Positions 3,063 through 29,550 of a stretch of DNA of 64,000 bases are shown in pieces (positions within the stretch are counted from its first letter, which is position 1; each line of letters begins with the position of its first letter). A program made the translations under genes and the position numbers. Under the pieces are notes generated by a model. It did not search any database. It saw nothing but the letters and a program-made list of their open reading frames with translations, and was not told the DNA's origin. The stretch comes from Cymbomonas tetramitiformis (lineage: Eukaryota; Chlorophyta; Pyramimonadophyceae; Pyramimonadales; Pyramimonadaceae): assembly GCA_001247695.2 (NCBI GenBank), contig LGRX02035258.1, positions 99,409 through 163,408 on the forward strand, given 5' to 3'.

Positions 3063-4439
3063 ATGGTTTGGAAATGTGAACACAACGATTGTAATACTAG
3101 ACCTAATTTCAATGTACCATCTGAAAAAGTGGGACGATTTTGTGCGATACATGCATTACCGGGTATGATTGATGTGAAGAACAAAAGATGCGAACACAAC
3201 GATTGTAATACTCAACCTATTTTCAATATCTCATCTGAAAAAGTAGGACGATTTTGTTCAATACATGCATTATCGGGTATGATTGATGTTAAGAGCAAAA
3301 GATGTGAACACTATGGTTGTAATACTCAACCTATTTTCAATGTTCCATCCGAAAAAGTAAAACGATTTTGTTCAATACATGCATTATCGGGTATGATTGA
3401 TGTGAAGAACAAAAGATGCGAACACTACGATTGTAATACCCGACCTAATTTCAATATTCCAACTGAAAAAGTCGGACGATTTTGTTCAATACATGCATTG
3501 TCGGGTATGATTGATGTTAAGAGCAAAAGATGTGAACACAACGATTGTGATACCCGACCTATTTTCAATATACCAACTGAAAAAGTAGGACGATTTTGTT
3601 CAATACATGCATTACCGGGTATGATTGATGTGAAGAACAAAAGATGCGAACACTACGATTGTAATACCCGATCTAGTTTCAATATACCAACTGAAAAAGT
3701 AGGACGATTTTGTTCAATACATGCGTTGTCGGGTATGATTGATGTTACGAGCAAAAGATGTGAACACGACGGTTGTGATACTCTACCAAATTTCAATATA
3801 CCAACTGAAACAGTAGGACGATTCTGTAAGATTCATGCATTACCGAGTATGATTGATGTAAAGAACAAAAGATGCAAAACATACATGTGTGATACACGAG
3901 CATCGAACCCAAAATATAAAGGACATTGTTTATTTTGTTTTATGAATGTATTTCCAAATGAACCGGTAGCTAGAAATTATAAAACAAAAGAAACATGTGT
4001 AGCGGACCATATCAAAGATTCCTTTCCGGATTATGACATAAGTTTTGACAGAAAAGTGACTTGTGGATGTTCCACAAGAAGACCCGATATCATGTTCGAC
4101 TTTGGACAAAAAGTGATAATCGTGGAAATCGATGAAAACCAACATGAAAATTATGAAAGCAGTTGCGAAAATAAAAGAATCATGCAATTGTCACAGGATG
4201 TTGACCATCGACCAATCGTCTTCATACGATTCAATCCGGATCAATACACAGATTCTAATGGTAAAAAAGTGACATCATGTTGGAGTATAAATAAACAAGG
4301 TATATGTCAAGTAAAAAAATCAAAACAAACTGAATGGAAACAACGTTTGGAATGTTTGACATCAACGATTAAAACTACTATTGAAGAACACACAAATAAG
4401 ACGATATCTATTTTAAATCTTTATTATAATGAAACTTAA
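3063..4439 (+). CDS. EsV-1-7-type cysteine repeat protein with C-terminal PD-(D/E)XK-like nuclease domain
   Basis: This 458-residue protein has seven near-identical 38-residue repeats (residues 4-269), each with C-x4-C-x16-C-x2-H, as in RCEHNDC ... RFCSIH. That is the pattern of the EsV-1-7 motif known from an Ectocarpus virus and from brown-algal proteins such as IMMEDIATE UPRIGHT. An eighth degenerate unit (RCKTYMCDTR) follows. Residues about 320-400 hold RPDIMFDF and VIIVEIDENQH, then CENKR and VFIRFNPD, resembling a restriction-endonuclease-like core with D342, E356 and D358. A repeat array reading DNA, RNA or protein joined to a nuclease is inferred. It overlaps the next gene by 11 bases. 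Confidence 0.75.
   Translation: MVWKCEHNDCNTRPNFNVPSEKVGRFCAIHALPGMIDVKNKRCEHNDCNTQPIFNISSEKVGRFCSIHALSGMIDVKSKRCEHYGCNTQPIFNVPSEKVKRFCSIHALSGMIDVKNKRCEHYDCNTRPNFNIPTEKVGRFCSIHALSGMIDVKSKRCEHNDCDTRPIFNIPTEKVGRFCSIHALPGMIDVKNKRCEHYDCNTRSSFNIPTEKVGRFCSIHALSGMIDVTSKRCEHDGCDTLPNFNIPTETVGRFCKIHALPSMIDVKNKRCKTYMCDTRASNPKYKGHCLFCFMNVFPNEPVARNYKTKETCVADHIKDSFPDYDISFDRKVTCGCSTRRPDIMFDFGQKVIIVEIDENQHENYESSCENKRIMQLSQDVDHRPIVFIRFNPDQYTDSNGKKVTSCWSINKQGICQVKKSKQTEWKQRLECLTSTIKTTIEEHTNKTISILNLYYNET
3072..3869 (+). repeat. seven in-frame 114-bp tandem repeats (EsV-1-7 units)
   Basis: Seven units of 114 bp (38 codons) lie inside the 3063-4439 gene. Several units alternate in pairs, for example GMIDVKSK versus GMIDVKNK endings and EHND versus EHYD starts. 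This suggests growth by unequal exchange of multi-unit blocks. No frame break is seen within the array. Confidence 0.85.
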
Positions 4440-11546: not shown

Positions 11547-13047
11547 TCATTCTTTGAAAAGTGACTTTATCTGTCTGGCACTAGGATCGTCCGATTCGGT
11601 CCACTTGGGCATCCACATATAATCGATATGCTTTAGTTCTATGAACCATTTATCATACACCATTTTATAATGATTCACTTCATCTTTTAGATTGTCTTTT
11701 AAATAATCGATCCAAGAATATCCGACGCCGTCGCTCATTCCATTCTTTTGTCTGTTGTAAATGGATTGTGGAAGATATTCTTCGAATGCTTCTCTGAGAA
11801 TGTATTTTTCGATACCATGATAGGATGGCATTTTGATTTCGGGTACTATATCATTGGTTATGTATTCGACAAATGCTTTGTCAAAAAATGGAACACGGAG
11901 CTCCAACCCATGAGCAGCCGTGCAACGATCCGCTCGGAGAGCATCATACTTGTGAACATCCTTTATAAGTCTGATGGTTTCGTCATGAAATTCTTGTGTG
12001 GACGGTGCGTTGTGAAAATAGATGTATCCTCCAAAAAGTTCGTCGGCACCTTCTCCGGAGAACATCACCTTGATCGATGGAAAGTTTTCTTTGATGTGTT
12101 TTGAAAGGAGATACATAGGCACGGATGCTCGGATGGTGGTGATATCAAATGATTCTAAATGCCATATGACATCATCTAATGACTTCATTCCATCTTCCAA
12201 TGAGAATTCAAACACGTGATGTTCGGAATCCAAAAACTTGGCCATCTCTTCGGCAGCGATCAAATCGGGAGAGCTGAATCCTTTGGTGCCCACCGAAAAG
12301 GTTTTTATTTTTTTTTGGATGTACCAACTTGGCCGCTACGGATGCGATGATCGATGAATCGAGTCCACCGGATAGAAAGAACCCGTAATCGACGTCCGAC
12401 GGTAGTCTTTTTGATACCGATTGAATTAAAAGGTTGTACAAATTTGTGGAATTTGAAAAGCTTGGTTCCATCTTCAGATAAGGTTTCAAAGACAACGGGT
12501 TGTATTTTTGAAAGCCGTTCTTCGAATCCCAAGTGTGACCTGGTGGAAACTGTTTGATGGTTGTGGAATTGTCTATCAACGCTTTGGCTTCCGATGCAAA
12601 GTTATACACATTCGGATCTGCTTTGGACTTTCCATAGAATAATGGACGGATACCGATCGGGTCGCGAGCGACGATATCGACTTGCGGACTTGTGTAAGCA
12701 AATGCGAACACACCGTCTAATAGTTTGCAAATGATATCGGGCGAATTATTCTTGTGATTCAACATGTGATAAACGACTTCGCAATCGGAATCACCTTTCG
12801 TCATTGTGACGGAGTGGTCTTGTAACAGCTGTTTATGGTTGTATATTTCACCGTTACACATGAATGCGGTGTTCGATTGAGTTTGAAAAAAGGGTTGACT
12901 TCCGTTAGAGGATAGATCGTTGATACTGAGACGATCGAAAATAAGTTTTCGGGAGTTCATGAATACGACTTGTTGGTCATCTGGCCCTCTATGATTAAGA
13001 GATTTTACATTAAGGTCATTGATGTTTATAAATGTTATACCACACAT
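11547..13047 (-). CDS. asnB: asparagine synthetase (glutamine-hydrolysing), frameshifted
   Basis: The N-terminal part (12208-13047) starts MCGITF, giving the nucleophilic Cys2 of the class II glutaminase, with NHRGPDDQ and then the ATP-pyrophosphatase loop SGGLDSSI. The C-terminal part (11547-12293) continues in another frame, with GAEELFGG-type sequence (FSGEGADELFGGY) and LRVPFFDK. The frame change coincides with a run of nine T at 12308-12316, so the gene is either freshly broken or the run is miscounted. The combined length of about 500 residues fits AsnB. It converts aspartate to asparagine with glutamine and ATP. In sugar islands, AsnB homologues can also amidate uronic acids, which would fit the UDP-glucose dehydrogenase at 19752. 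Confidence 0.85.
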
Positions 13048-21619: not shown

Positions 21620-21683
21620 TGTATATCAAATATTGAAAACAGTATGTTCAACGTACAAACTTTTTGTAATTTGCCGTGGTAAT

Positions 21684-22594
21684 ATGATCTATCTGCAATA
21701 TGATTCGAATACTTCTACAGATGGATTTGGTTCACAATTACAAAGAATAATGAGTTTGTACATTGTTTATAAAGAATATAGAGAACAATTCAATATTGTA
21801 TTTGATTTCAAAGGTCTACAATTGATCGAATATCAAGGATTAATGGCAATTGATTCAAATACATACATGGACAATTTTGTTGATATTTGCAACAAACGGT
21901 TAAATATAGAAACACATAATTCCACAATACCTCATGCTACAAAAAACGTTTCAATAGGACATCTTACGATGAATATACTAGAACAATACAAAGAATCAAA
22001 TGTAATCTTAAAATGTATTCATGCATATAGAATCGTAGATTGGAATCATAAATTTTTATACGATAATGTCAAAACGATATATAAAACTCATATTTTGAAA
22101 AACGAATATTTTACGATTGGTATACATCTTAGAAGAAGTGAGTTATATGCGGTAGATTCAAAAAATCCAAAAAAGAAAAGGATGTTATCGAATCAATGGT
22201 ATATTGAAAATACTAAAAAAGTTATATCAATTTTAGACAAATACAATAAAAAATATGTGATCGAATTATATGTATAATAATACGACAATCTTCGCTTGGA
22301 ATAAAAGCTAGAATAAACAGTGATATTATTTTAAGCAAAGACATTGATAAATTACACGAATTTGACCTTTTACCAAATTTAGAAAAATATATTAATGAAT
22401 TTCCGTTAGATACGTTCGATCGAATGATTAACTGTGATATATTGATATCAAGCATATCTAGTTTTAGTGCATGTGCAAGATATCTAAGTCCATCTGGTAT
22501 AGCCGTATATAAACAAGCTTGGTTTCGTTACGATACGAAAGATATAAATTGCGAAGAAAAGGATTTTGAAAAAAAAATATATGATATTTTTTGA
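21684..22594 (+). pseudogene. fucosyltransferase-like gene, frameshifted
   Basis: The N-terminal part starts at the Met at 21684 (MIYLQYDSNTSTDGFGSQL) and contains FTIGIHLRRSEL, the donor-binding peptide. It stops at 22277. The C-terminal part continues in another frame from about 22290 to 22594, with ILISSISSFSACARYLSP, the serine-rich donor loop seen in paralogues. The break lies between 22240 and 22300, near a run of six A at 22249. Either a pseudogene or an assembly error. A short inverted fragment of the same family follows at 22611. Confidence 0.65.
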
Positions 22595-22610
22595 TCTTTC
22601 TTATTACATG

Positions 22611-22823
22611 TTAGCGGATCCATCGTTTAACAAAAAAATGATTTTTTATGTTCATACATTCTTCACATTTGTCGATAAAATATGGATAATTGTCACAATT
22701 GTTTTCGAATGATTTTATGGGAGTGTATACAAATTGATCTTTATGATGCAAAATCGAACATATGATATTCAAAAATTGAGATCCAAATCCATCGGTTCGT
22801 GGTGGATTTGTGAAATGTTTCAT
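22611..22823 (-). pseudogene. N-terminal fragment of a fucosyltransferase-like gene
   Basis: Seventy residues with PPRTDGFGSQFLNIICSIL, closely like the TDGFGSQLQRIMSL opening of the gene at 21684 but on the opposite strand. The HxRxxD and C-terminal blocks are absent. It looks like the remains of an inverted duplication at the edge of the glycosyltransferase island. It could instead be a small expressed protein, but this is unlikely. Confidence 0.5.
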
Positions 22824-22980
22824 ATACTTATGATATATTCATATTGAATAGGCGTGTCATATAAAATAATTTGATGGGCAATTCAAATACATGCAACATG
22901 TATGACAATCAAAAAACGTAGAATTCCGAATAGTTTATAAGTACGTCGATAACATATTGAAAAAATATAATAAATATAAT

Positions 22981-24294
22981 ATGTCAGCTACAATTTATTG
23001 TCCCGGTATATTTGATTTGATAACAATTGGTCATTTAAATATAATAGAAAAAGCTAGTAAATATGGAGAAGTTATAATAGGTTTATATTCAGATAATTTG
23101 AAAGATGACTTAATCAACGACTTCGAAAATAGAAAACAAATCTTACAAAGTTTGAAAAATGTTCATGCGATTATAGAAGAAAATGAATTAAACTATCATA
23201 CAAATCTGTATAAATTAAAACCAAATTATATAATACATGCAGATAATTGGAAGTATAATGATAATATGAAATATCGAAATGATGTCATCAACTTGATTAA
23301 AGATATTAATTGTGAATTAATTGAAGTTCCATATACAAAAGGAATTTCTACATCAAATATTGTCGCCAAAATTTTAGATCACGATATACTACGAAATAAT
23401 TATATCAGTAAATCTAAAAAATTGAGAGAATTAATATTTTCAAATCAATTAGAGTTCATAATGGAAGCTCATAATGGAATTTCTAGTAAAATTGTTGAAA
23501 GAACTGGTTTCAAAGCAATATGGGCAAGTGGTTTATGTTTATCGGCATCTTTAGGTTTAAGAGATTCAAATGAAGCATCATGGTCTCAAGTGATAGATAC
23601 TTTAGAATATATGGCCAATTCCGTAAATATCCCGATAATTGTCGATGGTGACCAAGGATATGGCAATTTCAACAATGCTAGAATATTTTGTAAAAATCTA
23701 GAACAGCGTGGTATAGGTGGTGTAGTTTTTGAAGATAAATTATTCCCTAAAACGAATTCATTTATTGAAGTAAATGGAGGGCAAGAATTAGCGAATATCA
23801 ATGAATTTTGTGGTAAAATAAGAGCCTGTAAAGATAATCAAATAAACCCATATTTTGTAATTGTAGCAAGATTAGAATCTTTTATAGCGGGTTTCGATGT
23901 GAAACACGCTTTAGAAAGGGCATATGCATATCATGCATCTGGTGCCGATGCGATCTTAGTTCATAGTAAAAAAGGTAATTGCAAGGATATCGACGATTTC
24001 ATGAAAATTTGGGACAATAGATGTCCGATTATAATTGTTCCGACAAAATATTATGCAACTGCAACAGAACACTTTCGGGAAATAGGTATAAGTACGATAA
24101 TCTGGGCAAATCATAATTTAAGAACTGCAATAAAACATATGGAGAATACATGTAAAGACATTTTCGAAAATGATAGTTTAATTAATGTAGAAACACATAT
24201 AGCTTCAGTAAAAGATATATTTGAGTATACAGATGAAGATGGATTAAAATCAGATGAAGTCTATTATGAAAATTATGATCCGAAAGTTGTATAA
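22981..24294 (+). CDS. pepM: phosphoenolpyruvate mutase with N-terminal cytidylyltransferase-like domain
   Basis: The 437-residue protein from the Met at 22981 has two domains. Residues 1-135 resemble a TagD-type cytidylyltransferase (YCPGIFDLITIGHLN and GISTSNI), but the first His of the HxGH site is Thr (T-I-G-H), so catalysis by this half is doubtful. Residues about 145-437 are a PEP mutase: WASGLCLSA, VDGDQGYGN at 222-230 and the diagnostic EDKLFPKTNS at 251-260 that separates mutases from isocitrate lyase relatives. The mutase makes phosphonopyruvate, forming the C-P bond. The decarboxylase needed to pull the reaction lies at 26517. AT-rich motifs abut the start. Confidence 0.9.
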   Translation: MSATIYCPGIFDLITIGHLNIIEKASKYGEVIIGLYSDNLKDDLINDFENRKQILQSLKNVHAIIEENELNYHTNLYKLKPNYIIHADNWKYNDNMKYRNDVINLIKDINCELIEVPYTKGISTSNIVAKILDHDILRNNYISKSKKLRELIFSNQLEFIMEAHNGISSKIVERTGFKAIWASGLCLSASLGLRDSNEASWSQVIDTLEYMANSVNIPIIVDGDQGYGNFNNARIFCKNLEQRGIGGVVFEDKLFPKTNSFIEVNGGQELANINEFCGKIRACKDNQINPYFVIVARLESFIAGFDVKHALERAYAYHASGADAILVHSKKGNCKDIDDFMKIWDNRCPIIIVPTKYYATATEHFREIGISTIIWANHNLRTAIKHMENTCKDIFENDSLINVETHIASVKDIFEYTDEDGLKSDEVYYENYDPKVV

Positions 24295-25137
24295 TCATGA
24301 ATATACTAGATTCTTACTTACGCATGTATAATCACAATTTTCACCATATGTATCTAATGCATCATCTATTTTTTTGACTATCTGATTAAAATATTGTTTA
24401 TTTTCAATCAAATTCAATGCTAACATTACATCTTTTTTCATTAAATTTAATTTAAAACCGTAATTGCAATTCATTTCGATTACATGCTTAGGTATCCTCT
24501 CTGACGTAGCTAAACTTCGTCCAGATGACTTATTGATTACTTCTAATGCAGTATTGACATTGATTTCTAATTTGTTTTTTAAACTATTGATACCTTCGCT
24601 TGCAATAATCAAATTCGATACATTCAATAAATTATTTATCGATTTTATTGCGTGTCCCGAACCTAAATTTCCAACATAGTTTGAATATGAAAATAATTCA
24701 ATATATTGTTTCAATACTAAATAATCATTATATTGACCACCAACAATAGATGTTAAAGTTCCTAATTCGGCTTTTTCAGGACCACCGCTAATGGGACTAT
24801 CAAGTACAGCAATATTTTTAATATTAAGCATTTTACCAATTGAAATTGTTTTTTCATAATCACCTGATGTTAAATCTATTATGTATTTTCTGCTATCGTA
24901 ATAACTTAAATCTTTACAAATGTCAAACACTTCATTTGATGTAGGTAAACATAAGAAGATTACATCACTATTTTGAATCAAATCGTTATGATTTCTGTAT
25001 ATTTCAGAGTTATAATGTTTATTAAATTCTATTACTTTATGGAATGATCTGTTATTGATATTTACTTTATATGTTTTGGATATATTTTTTGCGATTCTAA
25101 ATCCCATAGTTCCTAAACCAATAAATCCAATTTTCAT
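24295..25137 (-). CDS. beta-hydroxyacid dehydrogenase family (3-HIBADH-like) oxidoreductase
   Basis: A 280-residue protein with the N-terminal NAD(P) site IGFIGLGTMGFRIAKN, the substrate signature LDSPISGGPEKAELGT and the catalytic-Lys block GHAIKSINNLLNV. The family reduces small aldehydes or acids such as 3-hydroxyisobutyrate or tartronate semialdehyde. In this cluster it could reduce phosphonoacetaldehyde to 2-hydroxyethylphosphonate, a step normally done by an iron alcohol dehydrogenase (PhpC). That substitution is inference. It converges tail to tail with pepM at adjacent bases and diverges from the PhyH-like gene. Confidence 0.8.
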   Translation of the reverse strand: MKIGFIGLGTMGFRIAKNISKTYKVNINNRSFHKVIEFNKHYNSEIYRNHNDLIQNSDVIFLCLPTSNEVFDICKDLSYYDSRKYIIDLTSGDYEKTISIGKMLNIKNIAVLDSPISGGPEKAELGTLTSIVGGQYNDYLVLKQYIELFSYSNYVGNLGSGHAIKSINNLLNVSNLIIASEGINSLKNKLEINVNTALEVINKSSGRSLATSERIPKHVIEMNCNYGFKLNLMKKDVMLALNLIENKQYFNQIVKKIDDALDTYGENCDYTCVSKNLVYS

Positions 25138-25163
25138 ATTATATTTAATATTTAATATATAGT

Positions 25164-25886
25164 ATGAATAATCTAAATGAAGTTATGTATGAATCTTACA
25201 AAAAAAAAGGATTTTTTATAATAAAAGACTTTTGTAATAAAGAACATTTAAATTTTGATATAAATTATAATGATTGTAACATATATAAAGATTCTAATAA
25301 TGTTATTAGTAGAATTGAGAACATTACTTATAAAAATAATAAAATTAATGATTTAAATTTATTGTGTAAAAAGTATTTAAAAAGTATTTTTGATAAAGAT
25401 TTTGAATTATTTAAAGATAAAATCAATCTAAAACCTCCATTAGGTAAAGGTTTTAAGCATCATCGTGATGGAATTTTTAAATTTACAAAAAATGATAAAG
25501 TTTTAAATGGTTGGTATTCTTATGCTGATAATTTTTGTAATTTTTTGATTTGTTTAGATGATTTTACATTAGATAATGGGACTCTTCAAATATATGATAT
25601 AGAATATAAAACTTTTGAAGAATATTATAATGAAACTAATAAAAACGGTACCCCAATATTAAATGATATATATATAAAAGGAACTCCAACACCGTTAATA
25701 CTTAATAAAGGTGATGCTGTAGTTTTTAATTCTAAATGTGTTCATTTTAGTGAAGATAATAAAAGTAAATGTTCAAGAAGTAGTATATATTTTACTTATA
25801 ATGAAGCTGTATTCGGAGATTTACATGAAACATACTTTAATGATAAAATAAATTATAATAAAGAAGTAAATAAATCACTAAATTAA
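25164..25886 (+). CDS. PhyH-like 2-oxoglutarate/Fe(II) dioxygenase
   Basis: A 240-residue protein opening with KKKGFFIIKDFCNKEHL, the usual PhyH start. The iron ligands are visible: H100 and D102 in KHHRDG, and H194 in CVHFSEDN. The 2OG-binding Arg is likely R205 in SRSSIYFTYN. LDNGTLQIY matches the conserved core. PhyH-type oxygenases hydroxylate phosphonates (PhnY-type, 1-hydroxy-2-aminoethylphosphonate), so a hydroxylating role on the C-P product is plausible here. The gene is extremely AT-rich even for this window. Confidence 0.7.
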   Translation: MNNLNEVMYESYKKKGFFIIKDFCNKEHLNFDINYNDCNIYKDSNNVISRIENITYKNNKINDLNLLCKKYLKSIFDKDFELFKDKINLKPPLGKGFKHHRDGIFKFTKNDKVLNGWYSYADNFCNFLICLDDFTLDNGTLQIYDIEYKTFEEYYNETNKNGTPILNDIYIKGTPTPLILNKGDAVVFNSKCVHFSEDNKSKCSRSSIYFTYNEAVFGDLHETYFNDKINYNKEVNKSLN

Positions 25887-26100
25887 TTAAATATGTTTAT
25901 ATTCTAATTAAGATAAATATATTTATAAAAATGATAATTTTAGTGGCAATAGTTTAAGTTTTATTTCATTATGATCATATCAATTTATTAAAAAATTAAA
26001 GAAGAATACCCGAATAGTATTATTATTATTGGTTTACATACTAATTAAAGTGTTGTTAAATACAAAGAAATCAAAATTCTCATATTATATAGTATATAAT

Positions 26101-26499
26101 ATGAGAATTTTAGTACCAATGATTGCAGATTTATTTCATTATGGTCATGTCAGACTACTACAAAGAATAAATGATATGTATCAAAATGATGAAATTATTA
26201 TAGGATTAATACCAGACGAAGTTGCGGGTCCATACAAAAGAGTTCCAATAATGAAATATGAGGAAAGATATGAAGTTTTAAAATCGTGTAAATATACAAA
26301 AGAAATATTAAAATTTGATCAAACGAATACACAGAAATTCATGGATGATTATAATATAACTTATATTATACACGGTCATAATAAAGAAGAACATCAAAAA
26401 TATCTAAATTTGTATAAAATTTCAAATGATAAATTGATTAGAATTGATTACTGTGATAGTATATCTACTACAAATATAATTGATAGAATAAAAAATTAG
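26101..26499 (+). CDS. stand-alone cytidylyltransferase (CTP:phosphocholine/ethanolamine type)
   Basis: The frame opens at 26029 but the Met at 26101 (MRILVPMIADLFHYGHVRLL) is the natural start, giving 132 residues. The intact HYGH site, VPIMKYEERYEVL and the terminal SISTTNIIDRI are the classical nucleotidyltransferase signatures. It would activate a phosphorylated or phosphonate head group as its CMP derivative. Unlike the fused domain of the PEP mutase at 22981, it keeps both catalytic His residues, so it is the better candidate for the activating enzyme. ATAATATG abuts the start. Confidence 0.8.
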   Translation: MRILVPMIADLFHYGHVRLLQRINDMYQNDEIIIGLIPDEVAGPYKRVPIMKYEERYEVLKSCKYTKEILKFDQTNTQKFMDDYNITYIIHGHNKEEHQKYLNLYKISNDKLIRIDYCDSISTTNIIDRIKN

Positions 26500-26516
26500 T
26501 GTACATTTTAATCTGA

Positions 26517-27665
26517 TTAATTATGATATGTTTTTATATGTTCCATGAATCTTTTCTTTCTATCTATTGGTTTATTTTTTGGTCTTGATAATTCATGCGA
26601 ATAATTAACTTTATTACTCGTTCTTATTTCTATAAAGATCGGTGATTCGAAATCTTTTTCTATCACTTCTTGTAATGTTTTATCTATATCATCTAATGAA
26701 CTAATACATTTACTATAACTATAACCACAATTTTTAGCAATTTCTGCTAAGTCAATATTAAACGCTTGCGTTGGTTGAATACCCACAGATTCGTGCATCC
26801 CATTGTTTAATACTACGTGTATTAGATTTCCACATTTACTATTTCCAACATTTGATAAATTACCCATATGCATAATTACAGAACCGTCACCATCTAGACA
26901 TAACACTTTCTTGGATGAATTCATGGCGACCCCTAAGGATATCATAGATACATGACCCATAGCACCAATATTTAAAAATAGATTATCATGACTTAATCCT
27001 ATTTGATCTACGGATTCTAGTAACTCTCTTGATATTTTCCCAGTGGTTGATAAAATGATCGAATCGTTAAAATATTGTATCAAAATTTCAATTGCTTCTT
27101 TTCTATAAATAGTATAATCATTCTTGATAATTATATTGTTGTTATATTTTTCAAACGTATTCTTCTTGACTAATAATATATGAGGTTTACATTCTTCTTT
27201 TAATCTATTAATTGAATTTTCTAAGATTTTAAATGCAGTTTCTTCATTCGATGCTAATATATCATATGATATTCCTAATGATTCAATTAGTTCGAACATA
27301 CATTGACCTTGACTTAAATGTTGAGGTTCATCTTTAATTCCTGGTTCACCTCTCCAACCAATGACAATTAACATAGGTATAGAATATACATCTTTTGTTA
27401 CTAAAGACATTAAAGGATTGATGATATTTCCAAAACCGGAATTTTGTAAATACACTAAAGGAACTTTATTTGTGGATAAATGATATCCAGTTGCTAGAGA
27501 AATTGCGGAACCTTCATTTGCCGTAATAATGTGATTTTTAGATTCAATATTTGATAATATCAAATTATTGAAATCTTGAAGTAGAGAATCCGGTACTCCG
27601 GTAAAAAAAGTAATTTCTTTCGCTTTCAAAAAATCTAAAAGATTAACAGAATCTAATTTTGACAT
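26517..27665 (-). CDS. ppd: phosphonopyruvate decarboxylase
   Basis: A 382-residue TPP enzyme. The N-terminal half has TFFTGVPDSLLQDF, HIITANEGSAISLATGYHL, VYLQNSGFGN and VIGWRGEPGIKDEPQH, all strongly characteristic of phosphonopyruvate/sulfopyruvate decarboxylases. The C-terminal half has LCLDGDGSVIMHMG and LNNGMHESVG, the Mg-TPP motif. At this length, with both halves in one chain, it matches Ppd. It turns phosphonopyruvate into phosphonoacetaldehyde and makes the mutase reaction effectively irreversible. Presence with pepM in one 5.5-kb cluster is the core evidence for phosphonate synthesis. Confidence 0.92.
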   Translation of the reverse strand: MSKLDSVNLLDFLKAKEITFFTGVPDSLLQDFNNLILSNIESKNHIITANEGSAISLATGYHLSTNKVPLVYLQNSGFGNIINPLMSLVTKDVYSIPMLIVIGWRGEPGIKDEPQHLSQGQCMFELIESLGISYDILASNEETAFKILENSINRLKEECKPHILLVKKNTFEKYNNNIIIKNDYTIYRKEAIEILIQYFNDSIILSTTGKISRELLESVDQIGLSHDNLFLNIGAMGHVSMISLGVAMNSSKKVLCLDGDGSVIMHMGNLSNVGNSKCGNLIHVVLNNGMHESVGIQPTQAFNIDLAEIAKNCGYSYSKCISSLDDIDKTLQEVIEKDFESPIFIEIRTSNKVNYSHELSRPKNKPIDRKKRFMEHIKTYHN

Positions 27666-27728
27666 ATTACTATATTTTATTTTTTATTAGTGTATAATAC
27701 TCCGAAAATGTTAAATGATTAGATAGAT

Positions 27729-27953
27729 TTGATCTTGTTGATAATACTTGTACTACTATTCTTGCTATTAAAGCAGTTCGATTTAATATATATATATAGA
27801 TACACAAACTGCATTATTTATATGCAAAAATCATCAATGCCTTCATTATGTCTCGGTTTAGAAAATCATATCTTTGAAAATTACGATGATATATATTATA
27901 CATTTCTAAACGAAATTAATTTAATATATGATCATATAAATGAAGGAATATGA
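27729..27953 (+). CDS. membrane-anchor ORF preceding the LicD-like gene
   Basis: A 74-residue frame whose start LIILVLLFLLLKQF is a strong membrane anchor, followed by a soluble part ending NEINLIYDHINEGI. It overlaps the LicD-like gene by 14 bases in another frame. LicD-like proteins of large viruses and the fukutin family often carry an N-terminal membrane segment, so this may be the detached N-terminus of the next gene after a frameshift rather than a separate protein. Confidence 0.45.
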   Translation: MILLIILVLLFLLLKQFDLIYIYRYTNCIIYMQKSSMPSLCLGLENHIFENYDDIYYTFLNEINLIYDHINEGI

Positions 27954-28527
27954 AAAGAAGATGAATATCTTATTACAAGATGTAGTGCGTGTATTGAACG
28001 AGTATGAAATACCATATCATTTAGAATCTGGAACATTATTAGGTTGTGTTCGAGATCATGCTTTCATTGAAAATGATACAGATGTAGATATTAGTATACA
28101 TCTATCACAGTGGTATGAATTAAATACAATTGATTTTAACAAATATGGGCTTGAAAAAATAAGAACATGTACAACCGTTCCTAAACGTACACCACCAAAT
28201 GAACGTGGTAAAACTTATTATATAAAACACATTCCTGGTTATATTATATCAGTAAAAAATAAGTTCTGTGATTTATATTGCGATATTTATGCAAACCCAG
28301 CATTTCCAATTGTAAATGATATGGAGTTCTATGGTAATGTATACAAAGTTCCAATTTACAGTGACTTATATTTAACCCAATTGTATCAGAATTGGAAATT
28401 TAAAAGTAATCAACATGCAGATTGGCCTACATTATGGTATACTGATCTAATAAAGAGTGATTATTCAAAACATTTTGATTTGAACTATAATATTATAGAA
28501 CATCCACCTCCAAACATACCCAATTAA
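27940..28527 (+). CDS. LicD/fukutin-like nucleotidyltransferase-fold transferase
   Basis: A 195-residue protein with EIPYHLESGTLLGCVRDHAF and ENDTDVDISI, matching the SGTLLGxxR and DxDxD signatures of LicD-family enzymes. LicD proteins move phosphocholine from CDP-choline to glycans, and fukutin-family proteins move ribitol-phosphate. Following pepM, ppd and a cytidylyltransferase, it is well placed to move a CMP-activated phosphonate head group to a sugar. A possible membrane anchor lies just upstream in another frame. Exact donor is inference. Confidence 0.75.
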   Translation: MKEYEKKMNILLQDVVRVLNEYEIPYHLESGTLLGCVRDHAFIENDTDVDISIHLSQWYELNTIDFNKYGLEKIRTCTTVPKRTPPNERGKTYYIKHIPGYIISVKNKFCDLYCDIYANPAFPIVNDMEFYGNVYKVPIYSDLYLTQLYQNWKFKSNQHADWPTLWYTDLIKSDYSKHFDLNYNIIEHPPPNIPN

Positions 28528-28674
28528 TTTTCAAAAGCGAATGGTATATAACATGTTTGTTTAATCTACACCATTATTATAAGAAATAAAGCATTTAACA
28601 TAATCAATAGATGAGACACATGTATTATAATATAACTAAGTGTTTCTATCAAAATTCGAATCTATATGCTTTTT

Positions 28675-29454
28675 TCAAATGACAAAAAAATTGCTAGTGT
28701 ATGCTACTTTATCCTCTATTGAATCGATCCCGATGTACTCATCTCCCAAATAACCTCTAAGAAACACTTTGGTATCACATTGCTCATACACATCGTACAC
28801 CACTGAGCAGATCTGGTTCCGAATGGTTTTCAAATATCTTTCTCGATCTTCCATGAAACATACCATGTCCGTGTATATATCCCTAAGGTCCGCTGATTCG
28901 ATCAAATACTCCTCCAACGTGATTCCATTGAAATGTATATCGACCGATGCATCCAACACGGTGCTACGCAAAACCTCCTCGTGGTACATGTCGATCTCTG
29001 CTTTCAGAATCCGAATCACACGTTCATCTTCCTTGGTGAAGATAGCACCCCATCGCAAGACCGCGAATTTGTAATCCATTTCATGCAACAAACGATCTAC
29101 AAACAACAATTTGAAAATCTGGATGCAATCATCAAAGTTAGTCTTGTCGGTGAGCCCGAAGTTAAACAAGGTCCGCGTGATGGTCATTATATGAGAATGA
29201 CGTTTGCGATGAGCATCGATATCTTCTAAAGGATTCTTCAGATTATCTTTCAAAAACAAAAAAGAGAATTGTTGCAAATCTAATACAGAATGAAACATAT
29301 AATCTGTCAACTCTTGATTGTAATAGGCATCAAACATCGCAGTGTCGTCAACCGATAGAGAATCTTCTATTTCACCATCTAATACTTCGACGGTGTCCAA
29401 ACATTCAAACATTTTCAAGATCAATTCAAAGGGTACGTGATGCAAAGTAAACAT
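28675..29454 (-). CDS. F-box-like protein
   Basis: The frame opens at 29529 but the Met at 29454 (MFTLHHVPFELILKMFECLD) puts an F-box-like motif right at the N-terminus, so it is preferred. The rest (about 240 residues) is helical, with RKRHSHIMTITRTLFNFGL and acidic stretches, and shows no recognisable enzyme motif. F-box proteins of large DNA viruses are thought to recruit the host SCF ubiquitin ligase. It stands at the border between the phosphonate cassette and the repeat-rich accessory region. Confidence 0.5.
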   Translation of the reverse strand: MFTLHHVPFELILKMFECLDTVEVLDGEIEDSLSVDDTAMFDAYYNQELTDYMFHSVLDLQQFSFLFLKDNLKNPLEDIDAHRKRHSHIMTITRTLFNFGLTDKTNFDDCIQIFKLLFVDRLLHEMDYKFAVLRWGAIFTKEDERVIRILKAEIDMYHEEVLRSTVLDASVDIHFNGITLEEYLIESADLRDIYTDMVCFMEDRERYLKTIRNQICSVVYDVYEQCDTKVFLRGYLGDEYIGIDSIEDKVAYTSNFFVI

Positions 29455-29550
29455 TTTTAGAAAAATACGACTAATGCGAATAATCCGACTTTTATAGTCT
29501 TTGGAAAAAAAATTAAAAACCGATAACAACGATTCGGTTCGAATCGTTCG

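Follow-up and report, generated by a model that had tools for sequence, protein, structure and literature searches.

Can a giant virus build carbon-phosphorus (C-P) bonds and place them on its own glycans or on those of the cell it infects? The question is raised by six genes at positions 22981-28527 of a 64,000-nucleotide stretch of DNA, here called the window, from the genome assembly of the chlorophyte Cymbomonas tetramitiformis. The window is the right end (positions 99409-163408) of contig C25074 (163,408 bases), in an assembly of 851,713,466 bases and 25,745 contigs. A preliminary description had seen in these genes a complete, virus-borne cassette for making a phosphonate and attaching it to glycan, and we find the six open reading frames (ORFs) in place, with all frames open. 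From the sequence we consider it probable, though well short of certain, that they form a phosphonyl-decoration cassette, acquired as a block and exchangeable, within a variable giant-virus glycan locus, and that they would provide a cytidine monophosphate (CMP)-activated two-carbon phosphonate for viral or infected-cell glycans.

The six genes and their predicted chemistry

We scanned the window's proteins against Pfam, at its cut-offs, and against NCBIfam, at equivalog cut-offs (TIGR02320, TIGR03297). The cassette region holds the following features (PEP, phosphoenolpyruvate).

22981-24294, plus strand: fused cytidylyltransferase-PEP mutase, 437 aa; above Pfam and NCBIfam cut-offs, with PDB matches
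about 22981-23394, plus strand: its N-terminal Fom1-type cytidylyltransferase domain, ~137 residues; CTP_transf_like 50.5 bits (cut-off 21)
about 23401-24294, plus strand: its PEP mutase domain; TIGR02320 357.5 bits (cut-off 319.55)
24295-25137, minus strand: beta-hydroxyacid dehydrogenase (HADH); NAD_binding_2 98.2 (cut-off 21), NAD_binding_11 69.7 (cut-off 30)
25164-25886, plus strand: PhyH-type oxygenase; PhyH 51.6 bits (cut-off 22)
25917-25994, plus strand: decayed, incomplete duplicate of the free cytidylyltransferase gene's beginning; 73% identical to 26087-26164 (repeat family D14)
26101-26499 (open from a TTG at 26029), plus strand: free cytidylyltransferase, 132 aa; CTP_transf_like 60.2 bits (cut-off 21), with HYGH motif and YKR loop
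26517-27665, minus strand: phosphonopyruvate decarboxylase (Ppd), 382 aa; TIGR03297 411.4 bits (cut-off 312.5), PDB match 9iz3
27940-28527, plus strand: LicD-like putative transferase, 195 aa; LicD 31.3 bits (cut-off 22.6)

The PEP mutase domain and Ppd both exceed the equivalog cut-offs of their own models, and the models for neighboring activities stay under theirs (phosphonopyruvate hydrolase on the mutase, 192.2 versus 374.4; two sulfopyruvate decarboxylase models on Ppd, 111.3 and 78.1). The mutase part matches PDB 1m1b (E 1.5e-106) and retains the aspartate that is replaced by alanine in 1s2u, which we take to be the D58A mutant. As noticed earlier, it carries EDKLFPKTNS, in agreement with EDKXXXXXNS, the defining motif of PEP mutases (PMC6697681; this and the other published sources are cited from parts of their text). 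The earlier call of a PEP mutase is thus borne out by score and motif, but it had overlooked the cytidylyltransferase fused to the N terminus. The best PDB match of that domain is 5x3d (E 5.6e-20), presumably the Fom1 cytidylyltransferase. When a predicted model of the fusion (mean predicted local distance difference test score, pLDDT, of 79) was searched against BFVD, the best identity among the 50 rows listed was 23%, and the name PEP mutase was absent from these rows, several of which are nameless.

The six genes also share an extreme base composition. The cassette has a GC content of 0.258, against a mean of 0.336 (standard deviation 0.036) over 206 segments of the same size on C25074, and every one of the nine lowest-GC segments overlaps it. 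At third codon positions, GC is 0.08-0.19 in all six genes versus 0.29-0.43 in four neighbors. Given this shared extreme within C25074, the genes are probably one unit that was acquired as a block, and the occurrence of two equivalog-level steps of a rare pathway within 5.5 kb of such DNA is far beyond chance. The cassette was found once in the assembly, where its other DNA matches span just 103 and 39 bases.

At the level of protein families, the fused enzyme would convert PEP to phosphonopyruvate, and Ppd would decarboxylate the latter to phosphonoacetaldehyde, pulling forward a first step that is itself unfavorable. Phosphonoacetaldehyde reductases are usually of the Fe-ADH family, which is also the type found at this step in the phage sets described below, and since the HADH of the window (closest PDB entry 1wp4, E 4.1e-42) lies outside that family, its substrate is something we infer: because the block holds no aminotransferase (none of the six proteins matched such a family in Pfam or NCBIfam), HADH would reduce phosphonoacetaldehyde to 2-hydroxyethylphosphonate (HEP). 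The PhyH-type protein, a putative phosphonate hydroxylase in which HxD...H residues are discernible by eye, might then hydroxylate HEP; a PDB sequence search with it gave no match, and its best NCBIfam model, methylphosphonate hydroxylase, is a hint only (48.5 bits against a cut-off of 500). One of the cytidylyltransferases, more likely the free one with its HYGH motif, would activate the phosphonate as a CMP ester, like the Fom1 domain. Finally, the LicD-like protein, for which a PDB sequence search was unproductive, would pass the phosphonate to a glycan from the neighboring island, LicD being the transferase of the lic operon. The order of chemistry first proposed (C-P bond formation, decarboxylation, reduction, possible hydroxylation, activation, transfer) is therefore plausible, with C-P formation and decarboxylation recognized at family level and reduction, hydroxylation, activation by cytidine triphosphate (CTP) and transfer putative; the reductase's substrate is less secure, and the LicD match is short.

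The exchangeable block and the contig around it

The preliminary description had counted about seventeen transferase-like genes beside the cassette. Across the 26 ORFs scanned at window 64-22277, six are over the cut-offs of Pfam families concerned with glycans (one GT2, four methyltransferases and one uridine diphosphate (UDP)-sugar dehydrogenase), which carries that count only part of the way; many others match no Pfam family, and some of these resemble glycosyl- or fucosyltransferases by eye. Related, gapped copies of the viral region, at 92-97% identity, lie on C22723 and C13591 of the same assembly (oddly, the matches of this search lacked the query's own place). Comparison with C13591 delimits a block.

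21635-28672, no strand assigned: whole exchangeable block; other genes between the same flanks on C13591
20843-21619, plus strand: methyltransferase (Methyltransf_11), conserved left flank; 96% protein identity over 54 residues in C13591
21633-22277, plus strand: fucosyltransferase-like ORF (by eye), the block's left edge; without Pfam family
28675-29529, minus strand: conserved right-flank ORF, without Pfam family; 95% protein identity over 150 residues in C13591

The flanks of the window and C13591 are 92% identical up to 21634 and 95% identical from 28673 on (461 bases seen), and the interior is unrelated save for 22607-22829 (90%) and 27791-27893 (92%). At this site C13591 has 7.3 kb of other genes, in seven ORFs: an FkbM-type methyltransferase, another methyltransferase, a fucosyltransferase-like ORF (by eye), a MannoseP_isomer/CTP_transf_like fusion, an RmlD/HAD fusion, a WaaY match (with APH slightly below its cut-off) and one more ORF. 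Since other decoration genes lie between the same flanks, there are at least two alternative blocks beside the glycan genes, the phosphonate set being one, and the LicD-like gene falls within the part that is exchanged. Interchange of blocks would have left the related viral copy with its mannose-isomerase-like/cytidylyltransferase, RmlD-like/HAD and WaaY-like set where the window has the phosphonate genes. The tie between cassette and glycan locus, proposed from the window alone, is strengthened by this second decoration set at the same position.

The facing ends of the two related contigs (C22723:93519 and C13591:11856; L127 and L128) share an inverted terminal sequence, 99% identical over 240 bases, and an element flanked by a 6-base target duplication sits in the UDP-sugar dehydrogenase gene of this copy. 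Inverted ends with a 6-base target duplication are a trait of Polinton insertion. Because of these shared ends and the duplication, C22723 and C13591 probably constitute one viral copy whose UDP-sugar dehydrogenase gene was cut by the element.

The remaining 99 kb of C25074, read as ten pieces, has an ORF coverage of 0.87-0.97 and a GC content of 0.32-0.44. Outside the window, this contig encodes MutS, a type II topoisomerase, Hsp90, Hsp70, ABC1, a patatin, Evr1/Alr and a helicase of SNF2/ResIII type, by eye D6-like; an HNH match noted with MutS is slightly below its cut-off. Evr1_Alr, type II topoisomerase, SNF2/ResIII-type helicase, MutS, Hsp70 and Hsp90 are typical Nucleocytoviricota genes, and we read C25074 as Nucleocytoviricota-like (giant-virus) DNA. 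Given the 852-Mb assembly around it, this DNA would lie inside or alongside a eukaryotic genome and differ from a known virion genome, and we rejected treating the window as a plain virus genome record. The label "virus-borne" holds, then, as regards gene content, but not in the sense of a known virion genome.

Set against a viral source is the absence of Capsid_N (PF16903) from C25074; within the assembly, its matches are confined to C1 and C375. C1 (418,321 bases) is gene-dense in the two pieces examined and has a C962R-type primase. On C375:1-10000 (L106), a fragmented capsid gene stands beside an intact one and adjoins host-like tandem repeats; the region resembles the capsid region of C1, which suggests endogenous viral DNA. 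The window DNA, too, may be endogenous, perhaps silent, or may come from a co-sequenced virus. The cassette could accordingly be a leftover of an endogenous giant-virus insertion, silent and without present function, and the related pieces on C22723 and C5725 (93-98% identical), the broken capsid copy beside host-like repeats and the Polinton-like insert with its target duplication would all be in keeping with such a history. We regard this as unlikely, though slightly less so than the other alternatives: all six frames are open, whereas gaps and an insertion interrupt the related copy, and the block would have worked in the source virus all the same.

Relatives of the cassette and other features of the window

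Two trees place the PEP mutase (PepM) domain. The first held 77 rows; for the second, more careful one (60 rows), three phage rows and 15 near-duplicates were dropped and a row for a host-like contig, C14242, was added. Among the 60 domains of the second tree, the window and 27 fused metagenomic sequences, known from protein searches, formed one clade (98/89), with P0001 as the window's neighbor (100/99). The fusion is not confined to one clade, since the first tree placed the phage fusions L002, L083 and L084 at a great distance from the clade of the window. In a tree of Ppd, the window and its 43 closest matches were split at 100 (Shimodaira-Hasegawa-like approximate likelihood ratio test only) from 19 outside rows that had themselves been chosen as less similar. 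When contigs were equated by an identical number of bases, 9 of the 42 distinct contigs bearing the 43 closest fused PepMs recurred among the 43 closest Ppd relatives, versus none among the 76 lower Ppd matches and none for 20 other PepMs, which argues that the linkage of mutase and decarboxylase recurs in metagenomes. The best 80 of 429 GTDB relatives align with the query from residue 112 or farther on, and among 360 plasmid records one covers no less than 80% of it.

The assembly has just one further PEP mutase match, on C14242 (L089), a stand-alone gene adjoining a second phosphonopyruvate decarboxylase gene in host-like DNA (ORF coverage 0.20-0.53 in four pieces), a pairing from which the eukaryote itself may make phosphonates. 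We considered and rejected this gene as the origin of the cassette: its product has 47% identity and, in the second tree, sits apart from the fused clade on a long branch of unsure place.

Virus-borne PepM is not confined to the window, since three IMG/VR scans found it in six contigs and two fecal phage records (L083 and L084) hold the fused form; the scans rely on short peptide patterns, so that this phage count is a lower bound. The phosphonate sets in the IMG/VR contigs lie as follows.

L085, 10019-14525: phage phosphonate set
L086, 8599-11266: phage phosphonate set
L087, 10019-13299: phage phosphonate set
L088, 8731-13178: phage phosphonate set
L002, 3252-6725: phage phosphonate set
L001, 3532-4948: phage phosphonate set

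Phage structural genes were recognized in L001, L085, L087 and L088, while L002, L083, L084 and L086 were counted as phage by collection label. Mutase and decarboxylase occur together in seven of the eight loci (L001 is cut by the contig end, and the decarboxylase matches of L086 and L087 are short only). A cytidylyltransferase or other nucleotidyltransferase is likewise present in seven, fused in L002, L083, L084 and L086, free in L087 and L088, and of the NTP_transf_3 type in L085. Five of the eight have a reductase or aminotransferase, namely an Fe-ADH-like gene (L002, L086, L088) or a PhnW-type aminotransferase (L085, L087; both under NCBIfam cut-offs), and three have a LicD-like gene near PepM (L001, L002, L088). 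Five phage mutases were scanned, and those of L002, L085 and L086 are above the PEP mutase cut-off, with L087 and L088 below it. With its mutase, decarboxylase, nucleotidyltransferase and PhnW-type aminotransferase, L085 likely encodes a CMP-aminoethylphosphonate route. The tblastn span over the fused mutase of L083 (4712-6046) holds two stop codons in the frame used, possibly reflecting another genetic code or a broken gene.

Elsewhere in the window, 3063-4439 encodes a protein with seven EsV-1-7 cysteine-rich stretches, and 11547-13047 an asparagine synthase whose sequence is divided between two minus-strand frames that overlap. Polinton-like elements occupy 39144-64000 (about 39-64 kb), with a 1.7-kb inverted repeat, DNA_pol_B_2 genes on both arms, an integrase-like gene between the arms (its integrase-core match is slightly below cut-off) and capsid-like gene pairs, recognized by eye, duplicated in inverted orientation. 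Within this region, 52.85-60.3 kb is 98.7% identical to C19429, 60.5-64 kb is 98.8-99.2% identical to three other places in the assembly, and 62-64 kb recurs in full length 18 more times at 92-99% and once at 71%; C43 and C9051, among the contigs sharing Polinton-like DNA, have a flank GC of 0.52-0.57. An AlphaFold2 model of the capsid candidate reached a pLDDT of 29, and IMG/VR scans with this candidate and the window's PolB yielded nothing.

The product, its precedents and its meaning

Several observations weigh against a glycan-decorating cassette. In the fused cytidylyltransferase domain, TIGH replaces HxGH (HPGH in 5x3d) and the next loop is about four residues shorter. The first-histidine position is N in 8 of 24 aligned relatives and H in the other 16, and since a CoaD-type pantetheine-phosphate adenylyltransferase aligned to this domain also has TxGH, the idea that TIGH makes the domain dead is weakened, and it cannot be called so. 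The free cytidylyltransferase has just 11 relatives in the protein search, none on a contig equated with those of PepM or Ppd, so that its travelling with the cassette elsewhere is unsupported. The LicD profile aligns at positions 2-49 of 227 only, the N-terminal part, and the LicD matches of the phage neighbors are likewise partial, one of them barely above cut-off. Furthermore, the window's Ppd gave no relative when scanned against IMG/VR, neither HADH nor PhyH had a tblastn counterpart in any of the eight phage loci, and the Fe-ADH-like genes of three loci stand in place of HADH.

The acceptor might instead be a lipid, with the CMP-phosphonate joined to diacylglycerol or ceramide, in parallel to the Kennedy pathway, to give a phosphonolipid that would alter virion or host membranes. 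In the PDB, the free cytidylyltransferase is closest to ethanolamine- and choline-phosphate cytidylyltransferases (5x3d is also among its matches), and in NCBIfam the LicD-like protein matches only diacylglycerol cholinephosphotransferase (39.5 bits; cut-off 225). However, the block lies beside glycan genes, the related copy has nucleotide-sugar genes at the same site, and none of the six proteins matched the CDP-alcohol phosphatidyltransferase family in Pfam or NCBIfam, and we find the lipid route distinctly doubtful. Alternatively, a host aminotransferase could carry the pathway to 2-aminoethylphosphonate, leaving the dehydrogenase to other sugar chemistry. The PhnW-type aminotransferases at this step in L085 and L087, below cut-off as they are, speak for such a route, yet the block has no aminotransferase and three phage loci hold an Fe-ADH-like reductase, which makes it a poor candidate. 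PhyH-like oxygenases occur in antibiotic-type phosphonate pathways. It is nonetheless improbable that the pathway yields a small phosphonate that diffuses freely, as an enzyme inhibitor or a signal, in place of a decoration: the Fom1 fusion is part of an antibiotic pathway (PMC6697681), but the LicD-like gene lies inside the swapped block and recurs near PepM in phage loci, and no further tailoring or export genes were recognized in the block.

The decoration cassette that we favor has partial precedents. Fom1, of the fosfomycin pathway, shares with the window's fusion the order of cytidylyltransferase then PEP mutase and the resemblance of the N-terminal domain to 5x3d; it differs in its HPGH, where the window has TIGH and a shortened loop, and the window's set is viral, with no fosfomycin-specific genes recognized in the block. 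The product of the Fom1 cytidylyltransferase is CMP-hydroxyethylphosphonate (PMC6697681). The Pnt clusters of bacterial phosphonyl tailoring pair PepM with a fused or nearby (within five genes) nucleotidyltransferase, and 23.6% of 1485 Ppm proteins are fused to PF01467, so that bacterial fusions are known (PMC6697681). The cassette has the same spacing, with a fused domain and a free cytidylyltransferase three genes from PepM, but it has a PF01467-type enzyme, a putative reductase and giant-virus DNA where Pnt clusters have a PF12804 PntC that activates 2-aminoethylphosphonate and an aminotransferase (PMC6697681); no PF12804 match was found among the six proteins in Pfam. In Prochlorococcus and SAR11, PepM clusters also lie within 5 kb of glycan assembly genes, although in cellular genomes and with other glycan machinery (PMC8931226). 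The Cobalt Borg, an extrachromosomal element, likely has a PepM-cytidylyltransferase fusion in a glycan region, but it is archaeal and a complete pathway is not claimed (PMC12660748). The lic operon likewise combines CTP activation with transfer to glycan (PMC6697681), there of phosphocholine and here of a phosphonate, and with only a partial LicD match in the window.

Among the literature matches listed (titles and abstract starts, with subscription papers mostly outside the search), we found no report of virus-encoded phosphonate synthesis. Phage phn genes have been treated as degradation (PMC13188868), phnW, phpD and phnY have been described as utilization (PMC13288924), and "phosphonate metabolism" appears among prokaryotic-virus genes (PMC10732071); PMC10987575 and PMC9381506 gave nothing for the terms sought on this question. 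The earlier remark that no described giant virus is known to decorate its virion with phosphonates agrees with this literature and with the 50 BFVD rows listed, but needs qualifying for viruses at large by the PepMs of the six IMG/VR contigs and of the two fecal phage records. The chemistry is known; the viral setting and the exchangeable locus we could not find described.

In seawater phosphonates build up, nourishing microbes and fueling methane production, and the makers described are cells (PMC8931226). If our reading is true, C-P compounds would have a new source in a virus with this pathway, which would divert PEP and scarce phosphorus during infection, and a C-P decoration would be expected to resist phosphatases. 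More tentatively, and with slightly more doubt than confidence, we propose that giant viruses have a serotype-like decoration locus that swaps whole blocks, one of which would be a complete pathway from PEP to glycan-linked phosphonate and would bring new C-P chemistry to virions or infected cells, and that phages put together an equivalent scheme, apparently repeatedly and with different partner enzymes. Bacterial O-antigen loci diversify by block exchange. Judging by the swap between two related viral copies, the surface chemistry of giant viruses may diversify in this way as well, and with such exchange between related copies the drivers of giant-virus glycan diversity become testable.

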